Positions 4,362 to 42,109 of a stretch of 46,957 nt of DNA are shown here, piece by piece. The translations under genes were made by a program, and so were the position numbers. A model generated the notes under the pieces. It was not told the DNA's origin. It ran no database searches and saw nothing but the letters and a program-made list of their open reading frames with translations. Source of the DNA: Microcaldota archaeon (lineage in GTDB: Archaea; Micrarchaeota; Micrarchaeia; Micrarchaeales; CABMGC01); contig DAHXNY010000007.1 of the NCBI GenBank assembly GCA_027365175.1, positions 1 through 46,957 of the forward strand. Direction: 5' to 3'. How positions within the stretch are numbered: the first letter of the stretch is position 1; every line of letters starts with the position of its first letter.

Positions 4362-4455
4362 CCACAAGCGCTGCTGCCTCGGACATAGCCTATCCTGACC
4401 CATGCCTCTTAGCGCATATGCACCAGAATAATGCCGCGGAGAATGAAGAAAATGT

Positions 4456-4529
4456 ATGCGAGCGCCGGGATTTGAACCCGGGTTTTTGGCTTGGAAGGCC
4501 AGAGTCCTACCAGGCTAGACTACACTCGC
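4456..4529 (-). tRNA. tRNA-Gly(TCC)
   Basis: Minus-strand cloverleaf with acceptor GCGAGTG/CGCTCGC, D-stem GTC/GAC, anticodon loop CTTCCAA (anticodon TCC) and T-arm CCGGG-TTCAAAT-CCCGG, plus A73. No intron and no encoded CCA. It is tandem with a second tRNA-Gly 39 bp away. Confidence 0.93.
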
Positions 4530-4568
4530 ACTCTTTTCATACCTTAAGTAATCATATATATAAATAAA

Positions 4569-4641
4569 TGCGAGCGCCGGGATTCGGACCCGGGTTTTAG
4601 CCTTGGCAAGGCTATGTCCTACCAGACTAGACTACACTCGC
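4569..4641 (-). tRNA. tRNA-Gly(GCC)
   Basis: Same acceptor stem as its neighbour (GCGAGTG/CGCTCGC). The anticodon stem-loop is TAGCC-TTGCCAA-GGCTA, giving anticodon GCC, and the T-loop is TCCGAAT. The two glycine tRNAs share nearly all acceptor, D-arm and T-stem bases and look like a tandem duplication with a changed anticodon arm. Confidence 0.93.
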
Positions 4642-4724
4642 ACAAACAGCCTCTTATGCCAAGGTGATATTCATATTACCAGCAAACGCTTATTAATATT
4701 ATACAGTGATAAGGAAGCACAAAA

Positions 4725-5282
4725 GTGTTGGAAATGGCAGATGAAAATAAGCATACAGCGACCAAGAAAAGCACTACAGTAAAGCCTGTATACATAATTG
4801 CAGGAATAATAGCAGTGGTTATAATCATAGGGGCAGCCTATGCGCTTACCTCTTCGTCACCCACAGTAGTCGCAGGCGACAATGTCAGCGTATACTACAA
4901 AGGCAGTTTCACCAACGGCACGGTATTCAACAATAACTTCAATTCCACTCCTCTCACATTCATTGCAGGCTCCAATTCCCTGATTCCTGGATTCTCAAAT
5001 GCGGTCATAGGGATGAAGCTAAACCAGACAAAGACCATAACGCTTCCTGTAAACGAGGCATATGGCCCGGTCAATCCCAGCCTGTTTGTAAGCGTGCCCA
5101 TATCTGTGTTCGGCAATCAGTCCAACTCGTTGAAAGTTGGCGGTCTTGTGAGTTCAAGCACAGGGTCAACAGGTGTTATAGAGGCTATAAACGCTACCAA
5201 CGTAACAGTAAACTTCAATCCGCCTCTTGCAGGGAAGGCTCTGGTGTTTGAGATAAAGGTAGTGAAGATACGGAGTGCATGA
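4725..5282 (+). CDS. Membrane-anchored FKBP (SlyD-like) peptidyl-prolyl isomerase
   Basis: 185 residues. A Lys/Thr-rich cytoplasmic tail is followed by one membrane segment (about 22-43). The outside domain has FKBP hallmarks: VSVYYKGSFTNGTVFNNN, PLTFIAGSNSLIPGFSNAVIGMKLNQTKTITLP and AYGP. The flap is replaced by an insert (VGGLVSSSTGSTGVIEAINATNVTVNFNPPLAGKALVFEIKV), the insert-in-flap layout of SlyD-type chaperone isomerases. Several NxS/T sequons fit an exported domain. It probably helps fold secreted surface proteins. The GTG at 4725 is used here; ATG at 4734 (MADENK) is equally plausible. Confidence 0.88.
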   Translation: MLEMADENKHTATKKSTTVKPVYIIAGIIAVVIIIGAAYALTSSSPTVVAGDNVSVYYKGSFTNGTVFNNNFNSTPLTFIAGSNSLIPGFSNAVIGMKLNQTKTITLPVNEAYGPVNPSLFVSVPISVFGNQSNSLKVGGLVSSSTGSTGVIEAINATNVTVNFNPPLAGKALVFEIKVVKIRSA

Positions 5283-5327
5283 ACCATCTTCAAAAAGGGT
5301 TTTAAAAGTAAGCTGAACAAAGTATTC

Positions 5328-6227
5328 ATGCTCAAGTACTACCTTGCCGAGCTGTTCGAGCCTACGCTGCTTTACAGCCTGGCTCTTGCAGTCCTTGGGA
5401 TATCCGCTGCTTATCACTACGGGCACTTCTCAGCAATAAATGCCATCCTTCTGATAATAGGGAGCATACTCGCGCAGATGTCAGTCAACGTAATAAGCGA
5501 CTATTTTGACTATACAAGCGGGCTTGACAAGGAGCTTGCAAGGAACAAGTCTGGCAATCTTGCAGGAGGAAGCTCGCTCATAGCGGAGGGCAAGATTAAA
5601 CCGCTAAGCACCCTTCTTTCAGGAATCATAACGCTGATACTCGCCGCTATTATAGGACTGTATTTCCTTACCCTGCAGCTGGCTCTCCTCCCGATAATCC
5701 TGCTTGCAGGACTCTCAATACTCCTTTATGCTAGAGTTGTGAAGAGAATACCCTATCTTTCAGAGCCATTATGCACCATTAACTATACGCTGATTGCATA
5801 CGGCAGCTTCATAGCGATGGCAGGAATATCTGCAGTAAACTACACGATAGCATTTGCATTCATACCTGCAGGGATAATGCTCGGCGGCAACGCCCTGTTT
5901 ATAAACGAGATACCTGACAGAAAGACAGACAAGAGATATGCGGTGAGACACAGCGCCGTAATGCTTGGCACAAGCAGGAAGATAGCTGCATACTACCTGC
6001 TTTTCCAGGCAGCTGCGTACCTTATACTTATAGCCGGCCTTTTGACTGGTGAATTATCAATGTTGTCAATATCTGCTCTTGCTGTCCTTCCTGTAACCCC
6101 TTATATATTTGACGGAATATATAATGCGTATTCAAAGAGGTATCCGGAATATCTGGGCCTCCATACAATCGCATCTTTTGCGTTTGCGCTGCTGCTATCA
6201 GCAGCATTCCTGATTCCAGCTTTGTGA
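5328..6227 (+). CDS. UbiA/MenA-family prenyltransferase
   Basis: 299 residues and about eight or nine membrane helices. It has the first Asp-rich motif NVISDYFDY (N54, D58, D61) and the second NEIPDRKTDKR (N193, D197, D201), which bind the Mg-prenyl diphosphate in UbiA enzymes. The NEIPD-type second motif resembles MenA-like quinone prenyltransferases. The two UbiE-like methyltransferases directly downstream, 13 and 29 bp apart, suggest an isoprenoid-quinone tail-and-methyl pathway. A role in lipid biosynthesis (digeranylgeranylglyceryl phosphate synthase, also a UbiA) is the main alternative. Confidence 0.85.
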   Translation: MLKYYLAELFEPTLLYSLALAVLGISAAYHYGHFSAINAILLIIGSILAQMSVNVISDYFDYTSGLDKELARNKSGNLAGGSSLIAEGKIKPLSTLLSGIITLILAAIIGLYFLTLQLALLPIILLAGLSILLYARVVKRIPYLSEPLCTINYTLIAYGSFIAMAGISAVNYTIAFAFIPAGIMLGGNALFINEIPDRKTDKRYAVRHSAVMLGTSRKIAAYYLLFQAAAYLILIAGLLTGELSMLSISALAVLPVTPYIFDGIYNAYSKRYPEYLGLHTIASFAFALLLSAAFLIPAL

Positions 6228-24635: not shown

Positions 24636-24785
24636 ATCTATTTCTAAAGAATCTGTAAAATTCCAAGACTTTCTTTCTCAAAAGGCAGCCTGACGCAGAT
24701 AAATAACAGAATCTATTTCTAAAGAATCTGTAAAATTCCAAGACTCTCTTTCTCAAAAGGCAGCCTGACGCAGATAAACAACAAT
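24636..24785. repeat. 75-bp tandem repeat, two copies
   Basis: Units at 24636-24710 and 24711-24785 begin ATCTATTTCTAAAGAATCTG and end GACGCAGATAAATAACAG or a close variant, with few mismatches. They sit between the S-layer terminator and the next surface-protein gene. Because 75 is divisible by three, a minus-strand frame stays open through both, but no start context suggests coding. Confidence 0.9.
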
Positions 24786-32412: not shown

Positions 32413-32712
32413 ATGTCTTCTAATAGCATTGTTGGGAAAATGGCACGAAGCAATAACCTATACTTAATTGCGCTGTCATTCTGCATCTTCTCAGGTTTAG
32501 TTTCGGCGGCTCCAACTATACCTTCGAACATAGTGGCGTACCTCCCAATAACTCTCTCAAACTCCCAAAGTACAGCAGTGACTGCAAATACTCCAATTGC
32601 AATAGGCACCTATTCATCTTCAGGTAACATAATAGGCTTCAATGCAATCGCATATGCAAGATATGAGCTCCCTGAACTCAATAACACCGAATTCTTCTTC
32701 GCCAACGGCCCA
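32413..32712 (+). pseudogene. Surface protein, 5' fragment
   Basis: About 100 residues: signal peptide (LYLIALSFCIFSGLVSA), then IPSNIVAYLPITLSNSQSTAVTANTP and NAIAYARYELPELNNTEFFFANG. This N-terminus is the start of a large family of archaeal surface proteins, which continue after FFYANG with a W-rich segment. Here the reading changes abruptly at about 32712 to recombinase sequence in another frame, so the remainder is lost. The joined frame stays open to 33000 by chance, giving a meaningless tail. Confidence 0.75.
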
Positions 32713-32716
32713 CAGG

Positions 32717-33472
32717 ATGATAGAGTCGGCCTCGAATCCGAGGGACAAGGCGATAATAGCCCTGCTCTACGATTCGGGGATAAGGGTCGGCGAGCTGCTG
32801 AGCCTGAAGAAGAAGAGCGTCGACCTGGACAGCGAGCCGGGCCACGTGGTCGTAGACGGGAAGACCGGCATGAGGAAGATACCGATACTGTTCAGCGCCC
32901 CGTATCTCGCAGGCTACCTCGAAATGGAAAGGGGCAAAAAGCCGGACGACTATCTCTGGACCGGAATAGGCACGTGGAAGGGGTCCGCGAAGCTGGTTGA
33001 CGATTCCGCTATAAGGAAGATGCTGAAGATCGCAGCCAAGAGGGCCGGAATAGGGAAGCGCATATACCCACATCTATTCAGGCACAGCAGGGCCACATAC
33101 TATGCAAACAGGCTTACAGAGCAGCAGCTCAAGGCGCTCTTCGGATGGACCGGGGACAGCAGGATGGTAAGCATCTACGTGCACATGTCAGGCAGGGACA
33201 TAGACGATGCGGTGCTCCAGGCATACGGAAGGCAGCCTAAGGCTGCGGTAGTGCCCATATTGACTGAAAAGATATGCCCGAGATGCAGGTATGCCAATGG
33301 CATAGACTTCCTGCACTGCAGGAGGTGCGGAGCGCCCCTTGACGACAGTCAGGTCAACAGGGAGGACGTGCTGAAGAGGGCAGTAGCAGACCACCTCGAG
33401 GATCCGGAGTTCTTCGATGAGCTGATGTGCGCGTATCTAAAGAGGCAGAGGCAGAGGAAGAGGAAGGAATGA
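32717..33472 (+). CDS. Tyrosine recombinase, lacking N-terminal DNA-binding domain
   Basis: About 251 residues from ATG at 32717. The catalytic domain is complete: SGIRVGELLSLKKKSVDL (Arg I), HLFRHSRATYY (HxxR), FGWTGDSRMVSIYVHMSG (Trp and nucleophile Tyr). A four-Cys zinc ribbon follows (CPRCRYANGIDFLHCRRCGAPL) and a basic tail. The core-binding SAM-like domain expected before it is missing because the gene is joined to a surface-protein fragment. It is GC-richer than the flanks. It may have lost activity, or use another start. Confidence 0.75.
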   Translation: MIESASNPRDKAIIALLYDSGIRVGELLSLKKKSVDLDSEPGHVVVDGKTGMRKIPILFSAPYLAGYLEMERGKKPDDYLWTGIGTWKGSAKLVDDSAIRKMLKIAAKRAGIGKRIYPHLFRHSRATYYANRLTEQQLKALFGWTGDSRMVSIYVHMSGRDIDDAVLQAYGRQPKAAVVPILTEKICPRCRYANGIDFLHCRRCGAPLDDSQVNREDVLKRAVADHLEDPEFFDELMCAYLKRQRQRKRKE

Positions 33473-33552
33473 GATGATGGTAAAAGACATTGTTTACAAT
33501 GTACACTGTCGTCTTACGATAAACTTTTATTTGTTTGTTGTAGGATTTCTAC

Positions 33553-33576
33553 AAAGCCATAGTGCGGCATGGCTTT
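33553..33576. promoter_or_regulatory. Upstream operator half-pair of mer operon
   Basis: AAAGCCAT-N8-ATGGCTTT is a perfect inverted repeat whose right half overlaps the TATA box CTTTAAAT (33573-33580). Its geometry (8-8-8) equals that of the second operator. Confidence 0.6.
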
Positions 33577-33580
33577 AAAT
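33573..33580 (+). promoter_or_regulatory. TATA box of mer operon
   Basis: CTTTAAAT lies 23-30 bp before the ATG at 33603, fitting a leaderless mRNA. It is embedded between the two inverted repeats. Confidence 0.6.
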
Positions 33581-33582
33581 AG

Positions 33583-33606
33583 TCATATGTCTAAATATAC
33601 ATATGA
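33583..33606. promoter_or_regulatory. Downstream operator of mer operon
   Basis: TCATATGT-N8-ACATATGA is a perfect inverted repeat that overlaps the start codon at 33603. Its centre is 30 bp from that of the first repeat. A repressor dimer here would cover the transcription start. Confidence 0.65.
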
Positions 33607-33956
33607 ATAAAAATGAAATCTTTTCTTGCGAGCTGCTTTTCAAGGTGCTCTCTAATAGTACCAGGCTGAAAATCGCCGCGTCTCTGATTGGAGGCAAGAA
33701 ATCAGTAAGCGAGATCTGCACTGAAACAGGGACAGACCAGGCAAGAGTTTCGCACGAGCTGCGCTGCCTTACCGTCTGTGGTCTTGTTGACTTTGCAAGA
33801 GATGGGAAACAGGTGATATACTCGCTAAACAGGGAGACGGTGTTGCCCATACTAGAAGCTGCAGGAGAGCATGTTAAAAGATTCGGCGACAGGATGGGCA
33901 GCTGCGATATAATATCGGAAGCCAAGAGGGTGAAGACCGGCGATGTCACATTATAA
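33603..33956 (+). CDS. ArsR-family metal-responsive repressor
   Basis: 117 residues with the winged helix of ArsR/SmtB repressors: LLFKVLSNSTRLKIAASLIGGKKSVSEICTETGTDQARVSHELRCLTVCGLVDFARDGKQVIYSL. Cysteines at 9, 39, 55, 59 and 101 could bind metal; C39 lies where ArsR has its ELCVC motif. It heads the operon with merA, so it is probably the mercury sensor, taking the place of MerR. The two inverted repeats at its promoter are its likely operators. The stop overlaps the next gene by 14 bp. Confidence 0.85.
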   Translation: MNKNEIFSCELLFKVLSNSTRLKIAASLIGGKKSVSEICTETGTDQARVSHELRCLTVCGLVDFARDGKQVIYSLNRETVLPILEAAGEHVKRFGDRMGSCDIISEAKRVKTGDVTL

Positions 33957-34476
33957 AATTGCGTATTTAGGTATGGTGCGTGCTGCAATCAATCAAATGC
34001 TTAGAAAGAGGAGGTATCTGTCGGCTTTCATCGCACTGACCGTGCTGCTGTTCTTTGCATATGCATACCTCTTCTCATATTTTGCGTTTGGCATTTTGTT
34101 TTTTGGGAAACTTTACCCTGCATTCGTGGTGCTAATCTCAATTATAATAAGCGTATTGTTGTCCTTGGTTTTGACGCTAAATGCCTATTCTTTAAGCAAT
34201 TATCAGAGATCTTACAAACAGGTTGGCTTGCCTTCGATGTCTGTCATCTTATCTGCTTCACTTAGTTTATGCTGTGGCACAGTAATACCTTCGCTGTTGG
34301 CTGTTTTTGGTGCATCGACCCCTTTCATTCTATCAAACGGCGGAAAGATTGAGGGCTTCTTTTCCACCTTTGAGATACCGCTTATAGCCATTTCTATTAT
34401 TCTGCTGCTCTTTAGTTTATACATGGTTTCTAAAAGCATATGTGACGTGTGCAAGATAAAAAGCGAATTGAAATAA
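33943..34476 (+). CDS. MerT-like four-helix membrane protein
   Basis: 177 residues with about four membrane helices (26-48, 57-81, 100-125, 143-163). The third helix has SASLSLCCGTVIPSLLAVFGAS, with vicinal cysteines 110-111, as in MerT, where a Cys pair in the membrane accepts Hg(II). A second pair, CDVC (167-170), ends the protein. Sequence similarity to MerT beyond this motif is weak, so the role as mercury transporter rests on the Cys pair and on merA two genes downstream. A thiol-oxidoreductase partner of the next gene is the alternative. Confidence 0.6.
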   Translation: MSHYKIAYLGMVRAAINQMLRKRRYLSAFIALTVLLFFAYAYLFSYFAFGILFFGKLYPAFVVLISIIISVLLSLVLTLNAYSLSNYQRSYKQVGLPSMSVILSASLSLCCGTVIPSLLAVFGASTPFILSNGGKIEGFFSTFEIPLIAISIILLLFSLYMVSKSICDVCKIKSELK

Positions 34477-34488
34477 TATGGTAGTGCT

Positions 34489-35178
34489 ATGGAATTTATC
34501 AAAAAACAAATAAAATGCAAAACCTGCAGCAAGGAATTTGAAACCCAAGAAGCATTTAGCCGCCACAATAAAGACGTGCATGATGGAAGCAGCGCTGGTT
34601 CAGCGAGCCACTTACCTCTATCAAAAAAACGAATTTATTTGATATTGGCAGTTGTTATAATTGCAGCTGTAACGATCTTATTGCTAGTCCAAAATATAAA
34701 CGGCAGCAAAAGCAATAAAGCAACATCGCTCGCAACGCAAGGAAACGTTGCTCCGAATTCAACATTTACTTTGTCGAATGGAAGTGTGGCTAGTGTATCA
34801 CAGTACAGGGGCAAAACAGTATTATTGTGGTTCGTAAGCACATGGTGCAGCTCCTGCGCTCAGGGGAACGGGGCAATAGACCAAAACATAAATTTCTTCA
34901 AAAGCAAAAATGTGACCTTGATTGAAGTTGAAACGTACAGGAATCTCGGGTATTCTGGGCCTTCAATAAGCAGTTTCGTGAGCACGTACGCACCGCTGGC
35001 ATATGCAAACAGCTCTATCATTATCGGCGAGTCGAGCTACGGCATGATGACAACATACGACAGCGGGGGCTATCCCGACATATACTATCTGATAGCAAGG
35101 AACGGCACGATAGTGTACATCAGCGGTTCTCCGGCCGCTACGATGGGCAGCCTGAAGGCTGAAATCAATGCGCTATGA
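34489..35178 (+). CDS. Zinc-finger, membrane-anchored thioredoxin-like protein
   Basis: 229 residues in three parts. A C2H2 finger (CKTCSKEFETQEAFSRHNKDVH; C10, C13, H26, H31) faces the cytosol. A membrane helix (about 48-67) follows. Outside is a TlpA-like thioredoxin fold with FTLSNGSVASVSQYRGKTVLLWF and the WCSSC active site (C120, C123). TlpA-type proteins reduce or oxidise thiols outside the membrane. Its place between the MerT-like gene and merA suggests handling of mercury-bound thiols. The finger-plus-thioredoxin layout is unusual. Confidence 0.75.
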   Translation: MEFIKKQIKCKTCSKEFETQEAFSRHNKDVHDGSSAGSASHLPLSKKRIYLILAVVIIAAVTILLLVQNINGSKSNKATSLATQGNVAPNSTFTLSNGSVASVSQYRGKTVLLWFVSTWCSSCAQGNGAIDQNINFFKSKNVTLIEVETYRNLGYSGPSISSFVSTYAPLAYANSSIIIGESSYGMMTTYDSGGYPDIYYLIARNGTIVYISGSPAATMGSLKAEINAL

Positions 35179-35195
35179 TGCTTTGAAGTGATACG

Positions 35196-36611
35196 ATGGA
35201 AGAATTCGACTACGTGATAATAGGGCAGGGATCCGCCGCTTTTTCGGCAGCGATAAAAGCTAACGATCTGGGCATCAAGACCGCGATGGTTGGAAGCAAT
35301 GCCACCGAGGGTGCAGTGCTCGGGGGCACATGCGTCAACGTGGGGTGCGTGCCTAGCAAGAGGATGATAACGGTTGCCTCTTTTCTCCACGAAGTGCGCC
35401 AAAACCGATTTGCAGGGATAGATGCAAAGGTCAACAATGTCAGATACAGAGAAGTAGTTGAAGAGAAGGACAGGCTGGTGGAAAAGTTCAGGACTGAGAA
35501 GTACAAGAACGTCTTGGACAACTTGGAAAATGTGACCTACGTAGAGGAATCAGGATCGTTTATAGATAAGAATACCATAAAAGCGGGGAAGAGAGAGCTG
35601 CATATGAAATATGCGCTAATAGCCACAGGCGCAAGGTCGCAGGTTCCTAAGGTAAAGGGTATCGAAAGAATAAAATACATGACCAATGAAGAGGCTCTCT
35701 CACTCAAGGAGCTGCCCAAATCGTTAATCGTGGTGGGCGGAAGGGCGCTGGGCCTTGAATTTGCGCAGATGTTCGCAAGGTTTGGAGTCAAGGTCACGCT
35801 ACTGCAACGAAGCGACAGGATACTGCCAAACTGGGAGCCTGAGATAAGCAGCCACCTGCGGGAGTATCTTGAAGAAGAAGGAATAAAAATAATCACAAAT
35901 GTAGACTTGAAAGAGCTGGACGAGGTGGACGGCACGAAGCAGGTGTCGTTAGCGGTCAGCGGCAAGCCTACCAATTTTGAGGCAGAGCAGATACTGTTCG
36001 CTACAGGGAGGGTGCCAAACACAGAAGGACTGAACCTTAAAAACGCCGGTGTCGAACTTGACGAAAAGGGATTCGTGAAGATAGACAGGAAAATGAAAAC
36101 AAGCGCAAATAGCATATATGCAGTGGGTGATGCCACCGGCCAACCGATGCTGGAGACGCTCGCCGCAAAGGAGGGCAGTGTGGCTACGGCGAACATATTC
36201 GGAAGCGCAAAGAAGGAGATAAACCTGAACGAAGTGCCGAGCGCGGTTTTCACAGATCCTGAAGCTGCGATGGTCGGAGCTACAGAGGAAGAGGTGCTTA
36301 AGGGCGAAATAAAGTGCGCCTGCAACCCCATAACGTTTGAACTCGTTCCGAAGGCGTCTATAATAGGCGATACAAGGGGAGTAATCAAAATATTGATAGA
36401 CAATAAGACGAAGGTCATATTGGGCGTCCACATACTAGCACCTCATGCCGCAGACCTAATACACGAGGGCGTGCTCGCTGTCAAGCACAAGCTAACGATA
36501 GACGACATTATAGATACTGTGCACGTGTTTCCCACACTTTCAGAATCGATGAAGCTGGCAGCGCAGGCGTTCTACAAAGACATAGGAAGCCTGAGCTGCT
36601 GCACAGAATGA
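35196..36611 (+). CDS. merA: Mercuric reductase
   Basis: 471 residues, pyridine nucleotide-disulphide oxidoreductase. It reduces Hg(II) to volatile Hg(0) with NADPH and FAD. The N-terminus binds FAD (YVIIGQGSAAFSAAI), the redox disulphide is GGTCVNVGCVPSK (C46, C51), the NADPH motif is VVGGRALGLEFAQM, and FATGRVPNTEGL plus YAVGDATGQPML complete FAD binding. The C-terminus, AAQAFYKDIGSLSCCTE, has the vicinal Cys pair that defines MerA and sets it apart from lipoamide dehydrogenase. There is no N-terminal HMA domain, as in other archaeal forms. Confidence 0.95.
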   Translation: MEEFDYVIIGQGSAAFSAAIKANDLGIKTAMVGSNATEGAVLGGTCVNVGCVPSKRMITVASFLHEVRQNRFAGIDAKVNNVRYREVVEEKDRLVEKFRTEKYKNVLDNLENVTYVEESGSFIDKNTIKAGKRELHMKYALIATGARSQVPKVKGIERIKYMTNEEALSLKELPKSLIVVGGRALGLEFAQMFARFGVKVTLLQRSDRILPNWEPEISSHLREYLEEEGIKIITNVDLKELDEVDGTKQVSLAVSGKPTNFEAEQILFATGRVPNTEGLNLKNAGVELDEKGFVKIDRKMKTSANSIYAVGDATGQPMLETLAAKEGSVATANIFGSAKKEINLNEVPSAVFTDPEAAMVGATEEEVLKGEIKCACNPITFELVPKASIIGDTRGVIKILIDNKTKVILGVHILAPHAADLIHEGVLAVKHKLTIDDIIDTVHVFPTLSESMKLAAQAFYKDIGSLSCCTE

Positions 36612-36712
36612 TTATGACCGGAACGATATACGGCGAAAGAGAAGAGAGCATGAGGCACGAATGCGAACGACTCTCGAGCTGGGAACGAGCTAAGATTTTG
36701 GAGAAATCATAA
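36608..36712 (+). CDS. Possible 34-aa peptide overlapping merA stop
   Basis: ATG at 36608 overlaps the merA TGA as ATGA, a common layout for coupled translation. It codes MIMTGTIYGEREESMRHECE and 14 more residues, charged, with a single Cys. It could be the last gene of the mer operon or a chance frame. No homology is recognised. Confidence 0.35.
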   Translation: MIMTGTIYGEREESMRHECERLSSWERAKILEKS

Positions 36713-37798: not shown

Positions 37799-38257
37799 AT
37801 GAATAGTGGAAACTCTATAAATATAAACCATGGTGTTGGGGAGAACAAACACCACCTAGAATGGTGCCCAAAATACAGATTTGAAGTGCTAAGGAATCCG
37901 TACATTTCGCAAGAGATGCAAGGAATTCTTGAACAAATTGCCCACGAAAAAGGTATAATAGTGCACAAGATTGTTGTTGATTCTGATCATGTACACATGT
38001 TCGTATCGATGCCTTTGTGGATGTCTGTTTCGACGGCACTACAGTATTTGAAAGGAATATCTGCATACAAGATTTTCAGACTACATCCAAATTTCAGAAA
38101 GAGATACAGAAAAGGGTCATTCTGGAGTCCCGGACATTTCTCACGAAGTGTGAGTAATGTAACACAATCTGCAGTTGAACATTACATCGACAAACACGAA
38201 TATCCGAAGTTCCTTCCAGGAGATGACAAAGGGCAGATGAAGTTGCATTTCAATTAA
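37799..38257 (+). CDS. tnpA: IS200/IS605 transposase TnpA (A)
   Basis: 152 residues, Y1 transposase that cuts and rejoins single-stranded ends. The HUH motif is DHVHMFVSMP (H64, H66) and the catalytic Tyr is in AVEHYIDKH (Y129). HHLEWCPKYRFEVL at the N-terminus is the IS200 type. It is complete and could be active. No tnpB accompanies it. Confidence 0.93.
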   Translation: MNSGNSININHGVGENKHHLEWCPKYRFEVLRNPYISQEMQGILEQIAHEKGIIVHKIVVDSDHVHMFVSMPLWMSVSTALQYLKGISAYKIFRLHPNFRKRYRKGSFWSPGHFSRSVSNVTQSAVEHYIDKHEYPKFLPGDDKGQMKLHFN

Positions 38258-38269
38258 ACTGCAACGAAG

Positions 38270-38289
38270 CCTCGGGCTTTAGCCCGAGG
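38270..38289 (+). repeat. Right-end hairpin of element A
   Basis: CCTCGGGCTTTAGCCCGAGG is a perfect 9-bp stem with a two-base loop, 13 bp after the tnpA stop. Confidence 0.7.
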
Positions 38290-38290
38290 T

Positions 38291-38533
38291 AATTCACATG
38301 TTAATGTAAATGCAATCAAATCTACTAATGCTTTTTTGGTAGCAAAACATGGTACATTCATATTGGGAAGAAACTATATTTCCACACTCAAAAAGGCAAT
38401 AGCATTGGAGGAATGTGCTAAGTTAAACTACAATGCACTATTATTGTCAAATAAAATAACTCCCCTTGCTACAGAAGATGTTGAAATAATGCATAATTTT
38501 TACATTAATAAATATGCAAATAAAATTAATTAA
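38291..38533 (+). pseudogene. Class II aldolase, C-terminal fragment
   Basis: The frame is open from the insertion-sequence end without a proper start: NAIKSTNAFLVAKHGTFILGRN, then ALEECAKLNYNALLLSNK. The HG motif after LVAKH and the ALEECAKL helix are the C-terminal end of class II aldolase/adducin proteins (such as fuculose-phosphate aldolase). The metal-binding N-terminal two-thirds is missing. Element A evidently inserted in the gene or carried a deletion. Confidence 0.6.
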
Positions 38534-39519
38534 TGTTTTTTAATCTTTATTTTAATAAAATCTGAATCAGCTTCAATACTCGCATCCCCACCTACGGGGA
38601 ATGTCATTATGGGATTAGTGTGGCCAAAGTCAAGTCCACCAATAACTGGAATATCCATCAGCTCTTTTTTCATAGTTACAATACTCCTCAAGATATCTTT
38701 AGTTATGCCTGAAGATTCTTGGAAACGACCTATCATAACGGCTTTTACCTCTTCAAACTTAGGCAAATTGATTAAACCCTGCAAATTTCTACTGAATAAA
38801 TATGGATTTGTTCCCTTATCATCCTCTATAAATAATACGGAATTATTAAAGTCTGGCATAAACGCTGTTCCTTGCAATAAATTAAGCGTGCATAAATTTC
38901 CTCCGAGAATTTTGCCTTCAGCAGAACCATCATTTACAATAAACGGCCCCGTATTATTTATAAATTTCCTGTTTTGCTGATCTGCGTACCATCTATCATC
39001 ACTCCATTCTTTTGAAAAATCTACAAAATAAATCTCATTATTCATAACACATTTTTTAAAATAATCTAATGTATACTCCAATCCCTCCTGCATTCCAAAT
39101 GTGGAAAAAAATGGCCCGTGATATGTAATCATTCCTGTCTTTGCATATATTCCATTAAGTAATGCAGTAATATCAGAATATCCTAAAAATATCTTCGGAT
39201 TATCCTTAATAACCTCGTAGTTCAAATGGCTTAAAATCTCACCGCAGTTATATCCGCCAACCGCCGTAATTATACCTTTCACATTTTTATCTAAAAATGC
39301 AGAATTTATGTCATTTGCTCTGGATTCAATTGGAGAAGAACCAAAAATATCATTTTCCATCGCGTATTCGGCTATGCTGATTTTAAACCCTAGAGATTCC
39401 AACTTTGTCATGGCTAACTCTTGTATCTCTTTAGATATTCTAGCGAGACTATAGGAAGGTGCAACCACTCTTATCTCATCCCCTGGTCTTATTTTTTCAG
39501 GTATTATATCTTTTACCAT
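38530..39519 (-). CDS. S66-family peptidase (MccF/LD-carboxypeptidase)
   Basis: 329 residues. S66 serine peptidase: IRPGDEIRVVAPS, ITAVGGYNCGEILSHLNYE, the nucleophile GYSDITALL (S115), ILGGNLCTLNLLQGT, FIEDDKGTNPY for the Glu and LDFGHTNPIMTFPVGG for the His. Bacterial members cut murein LD-peptides or, as MccF, destroy microcin C-type peptidyl-adenylates. Archaea lack murein, so self-protection against nucleotide-peptide antibiotics, or cleavage of a neighbour's peptides, is more likely. It is AT-rich and probably acquired. Confidence 0.88.
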   Translation of the reverse strand: MVKDIIPEKIRPGDEIRVVAPSYSLARISKEIQELAMTKLESLGFKISIAEYAMENDIFGSSPIESRANDINSAFLDKNVKGIITAVGGYNCGEILSHLNYEVIKDNPKIFLGYSDITALLNGIYAKTGMITYHGPFFSTFGMQEGLEYTLDYFKKCVMNNEIYFVDFSKEWSDDRWYADQQNRKFINNTGPFIVNDGSAEGKILGGNLCTLNLLQGTAFMPDFNNSVLFIEDDKGTNPYLFSRNLQGLINLPKFEEVKAVMIGRFQESSGITKDILRSIVTMKKELMDIPVIGGLDFGHTNPIMTFPVGGDASIEADSDFIKIKIKKH

Positions 39520-39630
39520 CTAATTTCCTCACAATGCACTATAGCACTCCAATAAAGTGATACAACTTTCAGTAATATAAAATCATCACAAATACTGATA
39601 TTCCTTTCCTTCCAATAAAAAGTGACAATT

Positions 39631-39714
39631 ATGTTTGAAGACAGCGGAATAAAGAAGCTCCTCCCTGAATCGGAGAAGCTCGAATGCCACTGCGTGTACA
39701 AGGCAGTATCCTAA
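39631..39714 (+). CDS. Possible 27-aa fragment
   Basis: ATG to TAA coding MFEDSGIKKLLPESEKLECH and seven residues. GC-richer than the genes beside it. Could be the start of a lost gene. Weak support. Confidence 0.25.
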   Translation: MFEDSGIKKLLPESEKLECHCVYKAVS

Positions 39715-39747
39715 AGTTCTCTAATCCGGTTACAAGCAGGGATATCT

Positions 39748-40380
39748 ATGATGATAGTTGTAGATGGCACCGACGGTGTAGGCAAGAGCACACTAAGCAG
39801 GAATCTAGCCACGCATATTGGAAACCCTAAGCAGGCAATAACACATTCTGAAAATACGCTTCTCGGGCCCGTTATCAAGAACATAATGAGAGAGGAACCA
39901 TTAAATCTTGTGGCACGCACTATTCTTTATGCATCTAACCTGAAATATACTTTAGAAAAAATAACCTATGACAAATTATGTTCTAAAGATACACGCTACG
40001 TATTTGACAGGTACATATATCCGACCCTTGCATCTCACAAAGCAATGTCAATATGCTTAAAAGACAGTGAGCCATTAAATATTATTAATAAACTGTTTTT
40101 TGTAGCCATGTCTGAATTTAAAGTACCTAACGCAACATTTTTTCTATACGCAAATAATGAAGAGAGAGCAAAGAGGGTTGAAAGCCGGCATAATAATACT
40201 CTACTTGATAGAATGTCTGGTTCTAAGGAATTAGAACAGGAATTATACTTAGATATTGCAAAATTGCTCAGAGACAAAGGTGCAACAGTCTACGAAATAG
40301 ATACTACTAAATTAACTGCTGACGAAGTAAATAATATATCATTAGAATTACTAAGAGCTTCTAATATGTGCGGTATATAA
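39748..40380 (+). CDS. dTMP-kinase-like P-loop kinase
   Basis: 210 residues. The P-loop is DGTDGVGKSTLS, the DRY-type motif is FDRYIYPTLASH, and the lid region is SRHNNTLLDRM. It looks like thymidylate kinase or a related deoxynucleoside kinase, which phosphorylates a (deoxy)nucleoside monophosphate with ATP. It is AT-rich and far from other nucleotide genes, sitting before the CYTH gene. The latter hints at a shared nucleotide or polyphosphate theme, though this is guesswork. Confidence 0.8.
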   Translation: MMIVVDGTDGVGKSTLSRNLATHIGNPKQAITHSENTLLGPVIKNIMREEPLNLVARTILYASNLKYTLEKITYDKLCSKDTRYVFDRYIYPTLASHKAMSICLKDSEPLNIINKLFFVAMSEFKVPNATFFLYANNEERAKRVESRHNNTLLDRMSGSKELEQELYLDIAKLLRDKGATVYEIDTTKLTADEVNNISLELLRASNMCGI

Positions 40381-40437
40381 TATATTAAGTTACTACTTAA
40401 AATAAACCCTATAGCTTTTTCATGCATATGTGATCCT

Positions 40438-41061
40438 ATGACCAATAATCCTGCACATACTATTAACAAAAAACCTCCTATAGAGATAGAAACAAAGATA
40501 ATAGACATAAACCCGTCAGAAGTAAGAAAGAGGCTTAAACTATGCGGTGCAACTTTTATAAAGAAGATAAATTACCGGATTTTGACCATAAATAAGTATG
40601 AAGCGAAATCCAGAAAGAAGACCATAAGGATAAGAACTGATGGCCAAGAAACTACTATTACTCTAAAAGACAGAAGTCCATTCAGAAAGCATCCATATGA
40701 ATATGAGACTACTATAGCTAGTTTTGAAACCTGTGCAAAGATAATCTCAATTTTCATAGGCGAACTGGAATACTCTGAAAAAACCAGAGAAATATACACT
40801 CTTGGAAGAGCAACAATAGTAATAGATAAATACAAGGATTTACCCTATTACATGGAGATAGAAGCTCCTACCGAAGAGCATGTAAAAATGGCATATGAAA
40901 AACTGGGCAGGCCTGGGAAACAATTTGGAAACTTCTCGACAGGAGAACTTTACAAGCATTACGGATTTACTAGTAAGAAGAAGACCTATGTTAAAAAATA
41001 TGGAATTGTACTGAAAGCTCCCGTAAGGAAGAATAAGCTATCTCATCAAGCACTGGCTTAA
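40438..41061 (+). CDS. CYTH-domain protein (class IV adenylate cyclase/triphosphatase)
   Basis: 207 residues. The ExExK motif is IEIETKI and the strand pattern TIRIRTDGQETTITLKDRSP, PYEYETT, ATIVIDKYKDLPYYMEIEAP matches the CYTH triphosphate tunnel. Such proteins hydrolyse triphosphates (tripolyphosphate, ThTP) or make cAMP. The C-terminus has an extra basic helix (KKKTYVKKYGIVLKAPVRKNK). AT-rich, with 57 bp separating it from the kinase gene. Confidence 0.85.
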   Translation: MTNNPAHTINKKPPIEIETKIIDINPSEVRKRLKLCGATFIKKINYRILTINKYEAKSRKKTIRIRTDGQETTITLKDRSPFRKHPYEYETTIASFETCAKIISIFIGELEYSEKTREIYTLGRATIVIDKYKDLPYYMEIEAPTEEHVKMAYEKLGRPGKQFGNFSTGELYKHYGFTSKKKTYVKKYGIVLKAPVRKNKLSHQALA

Positions 41062-41097
41062 ACATGATTATACTGAATAATTCCTTACCCAACCCAT

Positions 41098-41117
41098 GCC
41101 GCTGGACTTCCAGCGGC
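41098..41117. terminator. GC hairpin after CYTH gene
   Basis: GCCGCTGG-ACTT-CCAGCGGC is a perfect stem with T-poor 3' side, 36 bp after the CYTH stop. It could be a terminator or an insertion-sequence end, as it looks like the right-end hairpins of the tnpA elements. Confidence 0.5.
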
Positions 41118-41256
41118 TTTATGCTTGATTGGCAGCTACGGGCTGACGAAATCCTAAGAATATTTAAAAGGCTTACGTTAACTCAAAAGGAGGGTTTATA
41201 TATTAGAGTATATGAATTTGTATTCAGATATGACCTCCTGCTAAAGTGGTGAGAAA

Positions 41257-41376
41257 ATGAGAGATATAAGAAATGAAAATGAGACGAGATGTCCAATATG
41301 TCATATGACCTGCCAGGGCTGCGGTTCAACATGCCCAGGTTGCGGTGGAAAGGCAGTTGTAAGGCCAATGAGGTAA
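41257..41376 (+). CDS. 39-aa six-cysteine mini-protein (zinc ribbon-like)
   Basis: MRDIRNENETRCPICHMTCQ is followed by GCGSTCPGCGGKAVVRPMR. There are six Cys and one His in 20 residues (CPxC, CxxC, CPxC), enough for a compact zinc or metal knot. GGTGAG 3-8 bp upstream acts as ribosome site. The next gene begins 4 bp after its stop, so the two form an operon. A TATA box ATATTTAAAA lies near 41158. Function unknown. Confidence 0.6.
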   Translation: MRDIRNENETRCPICHMTCQGCGSTCPGCGGKAVVRPMR

Positions 41377-41380
41377 TGGA

Positions 41381-41863
41381 ATGGCCAGGACAAAGCAAAA
41401 AGTAGATGAACTGCTTGGAGAGGCTGTAAATGTCTCTCCCTGTCCTGCTTGCAGATATGATATGACTCTATTACGTCAAGCACTGCAAACCAACAATACA
41501 GAAGTTGAAAGGTATGTAAGTAAGAGAGTACGCCTAGGAGTAGCAGGCATAAGTATAAGCAAAATATTAGCCCCTCTTGTCAGGCATATACCTGCGGAAT
41601 ATGAAAAGTGGTACAATGACAATAGGGGTGCAAATGTGGAAGTATATACTAAAGTGAATGAAGCCATACAATTTACTGATAATGAAACAGTAAAAAACAT
41701 GTGGAAGTTGGCAAAATTCCGTGCAACAAATACATTGAAGCAACACACGGCATTTGTAAGGCTAATGGAATTCTATCTGAAATACCTTAATAATGAGCCA
41801 GAAATTCCCACAAGCGCAGATACTGCATCTGCCATTGCAGAAGCAAAGAAAGTGGCACATTGA
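41381..41863 (+). CDS. Hypothetical protein with CPxC
   Basis: 160 residues, not recognised. SPCPACRYDM near the N-terminus is a lone CPxC pair; the rest is helical with a basic middle (YVSKRVRLGVAGISISKIL) and no membrane segment. It follows the six-Cys mini-protein by 4 bp and could form a shared zinc site or complex with it. AT-rich accessory gene. Confidence 0.55.
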   Translation: MARTKQKVDELLGEAVNVSPCPACRYDMTLLRQALQTNNTEVERYVSKRVRLGVAGISISKILAPLVRHIPAEYEKWYNDNRGANVEVYTKVNEAIQFTDNETVKNMWKLAKFRATNTLKQHTAFVRLMEFYLKYLNNEPEIPTSADTASAIAEAKKVAH

Positions 41864-41896
41864 TTATGCAAACGCAGACAACTTAATATAGAAACT

Positions 41897-42109
41897 ATGG
41901 AGACTGACGGCGAGAAAATGAAACAACAAACAATTGTAAAAAGAGAACAACGCAGTATAACGACATTAGTTAACGACACTTTCATAGAAACAAGCACAAT
42001 AAATTCTGACAAATATGACGGAGTATTTGTTAATGGAAGGCGCCCACATTATTTAGACAGCATGGAAACTAACTCTATCAAAGAACTGTTTAGCATAAGG
42101 GTAGTTTGA
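41897..42109 (+). pseudogene. Short ORF running into insertion-sequence end
   Basis: 70 residues (METDGEKMKQQTIVKREQRS and onward), with no recognised domain. The last codons lie in the left end of element B (GGTAGTTTGA), so the natural 3' end was probably removed by insertion. Confidence 0.5.

Follow-up and report, generated by a model that had tools for sequence, protein, structure and literature searches.

The contig DAHXNY010000007.1 of a Microcaldota archaeon (Micrarchaeota; assembly GCA_027365175.1), a stretch of 46,957 nucleotides that we refer to throughout as the window, carries what its sequence identifies as a mer operon of new composition. Its four open reading frames encode an ArsR-type repressor, a four-helix Cys-Cys membrane protein for which we use the name TM4, a membrane-tethered thioredoxin with a zinc finger, and a MerA with the C-terminal SCC motif; this gene set is real and conserved and is found more widely than in archaea alone. 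The mechanism that we propose for it is plausible: the thioredoxin probably takes the role of MerP and TM4 that of MerT, with Hg(II) handed on to MerA, which would make this a self-regulated detoxification operon with a new type of transporter. The genes stand head to tail, all on the + strand, with a 14-nucleotide overlap between those for ArsR and TM4 and gaps of 12 nucleotides (TM4 to thioredoxin) and 17 nucleotides (thioredoxin to MerA), and so form one tight operon. An earlier reading of the same DNA (the original prediction) had given these four genes in this arrangement, and their positions, strand and families were all confirmed. The features are as follows.

33574..33581, + strand: TATA-box-like element TTTAAATA, a reading from the sequence, about 26 bp 5' of the ArsR start codon
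33583..33606, + strand: putative ArsR operator TCATATGT-n8-ACATATGA, a perfect 8-nucleotide inverted repeat that overlaps the ArsR ATG
33603..33956, + strand: ArsR/SmtB-family repressor, 117 amino acids, with CmtR-like Cys55, Cys59 and Cys101
33943..34476, + strand: TM4, MerT-like membrane protein, 177 amino acids, with Cys110-Cys111 and C-terminal Cys167/Cys170
34489..35178, + strand: zinc finger, transmembrane helix and TlpA/ResA-fold thioredoxin in one protein of 229 amino acids, with WCSSC
34510..34584, + strand: C2H2 zinc-finger segment of the thioredoxin gene, residues ~8-32, motif CKTCSKEFETQEAFSRHNKDVH, predicted to be cytosolic
35196..36611, + strand: MerA, 471 amino acids, without the NmerA domain, over the TIGR02053 cut-off

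Against the NCBIfam MerA equivalog TIGR02053 the flavoprotein of the operon scores 555.8 bits, with a cut-off of 454.45, and its score lies under the lipoamide dehydrogenase cut-off, though those models also score high. The active site is Cys46/Cys51 (CxxxxC), the protein ends in SLSCCTE with the vicinal pair Cys468-Cys469, and the solved MerAs 5x1y and 4ywo, which are its best solved relatives, align along the whole protein including the terminal Cys-Cys. The N-terminal HMA domain (NmerA) is absent from it. Judged by these scores and motifs the flavoprotein is a genuine MerA and the operon a mer operon. The MerA family is large, and this, together with the high lipoamide dehydrogenase scores, could suggest some other disulfide reductase of the superfamily, in an operon for thiol redox chemistry or for another metal; with the equivalog cut-off passed, the lipoamide dehydrogenase one not reached, the C-terminal Cys-Cys in place and MerAs as the closest solved relatives, we regard that possibility as barely credible. 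The claim of a new composition has likewise stood, as neither the gene set nor the TM4-thioredoxin pair was found described in the part of the literature searched, which was open-access.

We assessed the recurrence of the genes in a sample of 301 Micrarchaeota genomes, with thresholds of E<=1e-90 for MerA and E<=1e-20 for the thioredoxin. MerA is present in 57 genomes, the thioredoxin in 61 and both in 54 (Fisher p=6e-48), and in each of the three MerA genomes without the thioredoxin (G205, G213 and G261) MerA lies at a contig end. At least 52 stretches of Micrarchaeota DNA carry the two genes together with TM4, and the complete genome of Micrarchaeum A_DKE (L175) has TM4-thioredoxin-MerA. The four genes occur together far more often than chance would allow, and for this subfamily the membrane and thioredoxin genes do not occur mainly without merA, which bears out the expectation that the genes recur together. 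The commonest gene order is TM4-thioredoxin-ArsR-MerA, accompanied by ArsR-MerA-TM4-thioredoxin, by TM4-thioredoxin-MerA without ArsR, and by an arrangement in which MerA points away from ArsR, a zinc-finger thioredoxin and TM4; the order in the window is unique among the stretches compared. Constant content with a changing order is as expected of a functional module. The MerA tree first put the window beside the main Micrarchaeota clade, and its ArsR grouped with a divergent clade whose thioredoxins carry zinc fingers, an arrangement that might indicate a mosaic origin of the operon. The approximately unbiased test does not reject a grouping of the window with the zinc-finger clade for MerA (p 0.53), the thioredoxin (p 0.56) or TM4 (p 0.66), and since ArsR already groups in this way a mosaic is not needed. 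MerA has been recorded in 22 Micrarchaeota genomes (PMC8261052), a source in which we found no description of its operon partners.

Beyond the phylum, we used the thioredoxin alignment to query 84,980 genomes and found ten loci with all four genes in Parvarchaeota/Nanoarchaeota, and TM4-thioredoxin pairs in Actinobacteria and in one Chloroflexi and one Proteobacteria metagenome-assembled genome, many of them with MerA in the 5-kb flanks. Plasmids of Acidithiobacillus ferrooxidans (CP084175) and Acidiphilium (pACMV1) carry merA followed by a 'redoxin' and a 'hypothetical protein', which are the thioredoxin and TM4. The mer locus of a Halorussus plasmid (L214) contains merB, merA, ArsR, TM4 and a protein (4371-5822) in which four C2H2-like fingers are fused to the thioredoxin and a DUF3105 domain, as well as a small two-helix Cys-Cys protein that is MerF-like by eye. 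No thioredoxin relatives were found in viral contigs. Fresh samples searched with TM4 as query (237 genomes of the Parvarchaeota/Nanoarchaeota phylum and 201 Actinocrispum relatives) yielded seven newly inspected mer-type TM4s, all seven adjoining merA and arsR. Each of the three further strong Parvarchaeota/Nanoarchaeota matches inspected has the order TM4-thioredoxin-ArsR-MerA, and all four further Actinobacteria matches inspected have merA and arsR as neighbours, with this thioredoxin missing from three of the loci (L251, L252 and L254). The presence of TM4 and merA without the thioredoxin in bacterial loci marks MerA as the core partner of TM4, which would suit an Hg(II) importer. The architecture, proposed at the outset as an archaeal one, is therefore conserved in archaea but also occurs in Actinobacteria, Chloroflexi, Proteobacteria and beside merA on bacterial plasmids.

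The window TM4 reaches the cut-off of no Pfam or NCBIfam family and belongs to no named family; its AlphaFold2 model is all-helical, with a predicted local distance difference test (pLDDT) score of 79.6. In an alignment of 70 TM4s the Cys110-Cys111 pair is invariant (70/70), Pro116 is kept in 96% and Cys170 in 93%, and 61 of the 70 have a Cys pair in their last 35 residues, which in the window protein is Cys167-x2-Cys170. An alignment of TM4 to MerT brings the Cys-Cys helix and the next helix into register, followed by the Cys pair of the cytoplasmic loop of MerT. Several TM4 homologues match Pfam MerT (E values of 6.6e-5, 1.5e-4, 0.0034 and 0.0096), spanning the Cys-Cys to the following helix where coordinates are shown, and NCBIfam MerTP is matched likewise, whereas the CcdA/DsbD models are not matched by the TM4s. 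TM4 thus shares with MerT a vicinal Cys pair in a membrane helix and a C-terminal Cys pair, the latter presumably on the cytoplasmic side. The Cys-Cys of a MerT lies in the first of its three helices, whereas that of TM4 comes after two extra N-terminal helices, and no helix follows the C-terminal pair of TM4. Because the profile matches are weak but specific and the cysteines are so placed, the sequences suggest a MerT-like core with two helices added at the N terminus; because the Pfam gathering score is never passed, we do not call the protein a MerT. Comparison with single MerC and MerF sequences by hhalign gave no decisive match from shallow alignments. Distant TM4 paralogues in the same phylum, with Cys-Gly-Cys for Cys-Cys, stand alone and not near merA (L229-L231, L233, L234, L236-L238 and L245), and other TM4-like paralogues in Nanoarchaeota carry FCCN, none of them near merA.

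The window thioredoxin scores above the Pfam AhpC-TSA/Redoxin cut-offs and is closest to ResA in NCBIfam. It has the fold, transmembrane anchor and WCxxC motif of the TlpA/ResA group (WCSSC, Cys120/123); a Foldseek search with its model returned ResA/DsbE-like folds (E ~4e-9). The HMA ferredoxin-like fold and GMTCxxC motif of MerP are replaced here by a thioredoxin fold. The AlphaFold2 model is confident in the ResA-like domain (pLDDT mostly >95) and of moderate confidence in the N-terminal finger, a single C2H2 unit (C-x2-C-x12-H-x5-H) that Pfam C2H2 models match only below threshold (E ~0.005). A helix at residues 46-70 separates finger and thioredoxin domain, and since the finger precedes this transmembrane helix it is expected to be cytosolic. 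The original prediction had singled out the fusion as seemingly undescribed. The finger is not a defining part of the system: it occurs in only 10 of the 75 thioredoxin homologues examined, namely that of the window, those of eight loci in the divergent Micrarchaeota clade and that of the Halorussus plasmid, and is optional. The union of zinc finger and thioredoxin fold looks like a recurring archaeal one, as similar finger segments are joined to proteins of the thioredoxin/DsbA family that lie beside DsbB and COX15/CtaA on haloarchaeal plasmids (L256 and L257). We set these fusions aside as a separate matter, given that they adjoin DsbB and not merA. The proline of the cis-Pro loop, before strand 3, is absent from at least 71 of the 75 homologues; the group consensus there is GYLDIYYLI, and the position of the alignment column may be off by one residue. 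In two of the homologues the motif could not be located, and the proline is seen only in the window (PDIYYLI) and Halorussus proteins. According to PMC2757866, citing Su 2007, this proline may prevent metal binding by CxxC.

These properties can be assembled into a relay. Acting in place of MerP, the membrane-tethered thioredoxin would bind Hg(II) outside the cell through the two cysteines of its WCxxC motif and pass it to the buried Cys110-Cys111 of TM4, which would serve as the MerT. The C-terminal cysteines of TM4, facing the cytoplasm, would then take over the ion and hand it to Cys468-Cys469 of MerA for reduction to Hg(0), a less harmful vapour. In the window protein the cytosolic finger may help the relay to dock, or may substitute for NmerA by keeping Hg(II) close to MerA. 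The known relay runs from MerP Cys33/36 to MerT Cys24/25, MerT Cys76/82 and MerA Cys558/559 (PMC5715351), and the window has a Cys pair for each of these stations (thioredoxin Cys120/123, TM4 Cys110/111, TM4 Cys167/170 and MerA Cys468/469).

Several points weigh against this relay. The PF02411 (Pfam MerT) scores of the TM4 homologues are 22.3 bits at best (L177), with 17.8 and 16.4 for others, and never reach the gathering cut-off of 32.9; the window TM4 itself gives no Pfam MerT match, its comparison by hhalign with a shallow MerT alignment of seq­uences numbering seven is not significant (probability 4%), and a PDB fold search with its model matches nothing. A PF02411 profile search found no match in the genome of the window and none in control genomes either, and is uninformative. 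The window thioredoxin keeps the cis-Pro-loop proline (Pro196), within the one-residue uncertainty of that column, which weakens the argument for metal binding in its case. Three loci (L239, L242 and L243) have TM4 and the thioredoxin, two of them also ArsR, but lack a convincing MerA within the DNA inspected around them; here MerA may have been lost or replaced. Finally, the binding of Hg(II) by thioredoxin and TM4, its transport and the direction of that transport, its action as inducer and the role of the finger are what we infer from sequence and models.

The fold and WCxxC motif of the thioredoxin would also suit a redox relay, in which TM4 sends reducing equivalents outward in the manner of CcdA/DsbD and keeps the external thioredoxin reduced for the repair of surface thiols hit by Hg(II), while Hg(II) enters unaided and MerA acts alone. 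The proline retained in the window would fit such a role, as would a Pseudonocardia plasmid (L215) with merB-merA-arsR beside a divergent TlpA-CcdA pair, another merA-linked thioredoxin, this one with a known electron carrier. However, the cysteines of TM4 follow MerT rather than CcdA, most homologues lack the proline, and the three actinobacterial loci that combine TM4 with merA and arsR but lack this thioredoxin argue against TM4 as its mere electron donor; we consider the redox relay rather unlikely. The original prediction had left open whether the pair passes Hg(II) or restores thiols, and had missed the relation to MerT, which makes Hg(II) import the likelier of the two.

Control of the operon is assigned to the ArsR protein, which matches Pfam HTH_5 (E=3.5e-10) and scores above the cut-off of NCBIfam HTH_metalloreg. 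Its Cys55 and Cys59 are present in 100% and Cys101 in 98% of the aligned ArsRs from these loci. The protein shares the ArsR fold with CmtR, the Cd/Pb sensor of Mycobacterium, whose ligands are Cys57, Cys61 and Cys102: residues 12-77 align to residues 14-79 of CmtR (2jsc), placing Cys55/Cys59 on 57/61, and Cys101 is matched to Cys102 by position near the C terminus only. Unlike CmtR, it stays below the CmtR equivalog cut-off (34.7 bits against 150) and has a different gene neighbourhood. A 24-bp palindrome lies on its promoter at 33583-33606, overlapping the start codon; two further loci (L109 and L110), whose ArsRs are only about half identical, have the same repeat, one base longer, in the same place before ArsR, and similar palindromes precede other operons of this type. 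The three-Cys-site ArsR would sit on the palindrome and release it on binding Hg(II), the probable inducer. That an ArsR stands in the mer locus was correctly predicted, but mer control of this type had been described before, in Sulfolobus, in other archaea and in Streptomyces (PMC3466566). Its likeness to CmtR leaves room for inducers besides Hg(II), and with the three loci lacking a convincing MerA nearby this could point to efflux or sequestration, TM4 and the thioredoxin exporting Hg(II) or a different soft metal (Cd/Pb, for example), or keeping it outside, with MerA as a second defence. We judge this quite improbable given the absence of an ATPase or known exporter motif, the close association with MerA, an enzyme that acts on Hg(II) in the cytosol, and the MerT-like cysteine layout of TM4.

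With the import relay as the preferred reading, the nearest known system is the proteobacterial merTPA (Tn21/Tn501 type), which likewise combines MerA, an outside Cys-pair protein and a membrane Cys-Cys protein in the same expected order of Hg(II) hand-over; the window differs in having a membrane-tethered thioredoxin fold for MerP, ArsR for MerR and no NmerA, and in a TM4 that has two extra N-terminal helices and lacks the third helix of MerT. The Sulfolobus mer locus (an ArsR-type MerR, the TRASH protein MerH and MerA) also places an archaeal MerA under an ArsR-type repressor, whereas the window has no TRASH protein and has transporter-like and thioredoxin genes. The thioredoxins differ from the ResA/TlpA/DsbE oxidoreductases in that most of this merA-tied group lack the cis-Pro-loop proline and some carry N-terminal zinc fingers. 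Boyd and Barkay in 2012 reported mer transport genes to be absent from archaea except for Ferroplasma merP, and left open how Hg(II) reaches archaeal MerA (PMC3466566); both merA and merP occur in Thermoplasmatales from acid mine drainage (PMC3750248). In Micrarchaeota, with genomes of ~1 Mb, nearly every MerA found comes with a transporter-like gene and a thiol protein outside the membrane. The chances seem evenly balanced that TM4 and the thioredoxin are an undescribed Hg(II) acquisition pair, a thioredoxin fold acting as mercury chaperone and feeding a MerT-like importer, spread over acidophilic DPANN archaea, haloarchaeal and bacterial plasmids and Actinobacteria, with the C2H2 finger of some lineages as a fused inner hand-over site. 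If so, annotation has missed a mercury transport family common to archaea and bacteria, of which many come from acid mine drainage, and the thioredoxin would be a test case for this fold as a metal carrier.

The host is a tiny acid-mine archaeon, with an assembly of 795 kb in 29 contigs. Just upstream of the operon the window carries a tyrosine recombinase (XerA-like) with a C-terminal zinc ribbon (32642-33472), and downstream an IS200-type transposase (37799-38257), flanking genes that suggest a mobile neighbourhood. Near the transposase begins an AT-rich island (38000-42000; G+C content ~0.36 against 0.45-0.50 around it) that contains an S66 peptidase, a thymidylate-kinase-like protein and a CYTH protein. 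Elsewhere in the window, positions 24636-24783 hold a 75-bp tandem duplication with copies 97% identical.

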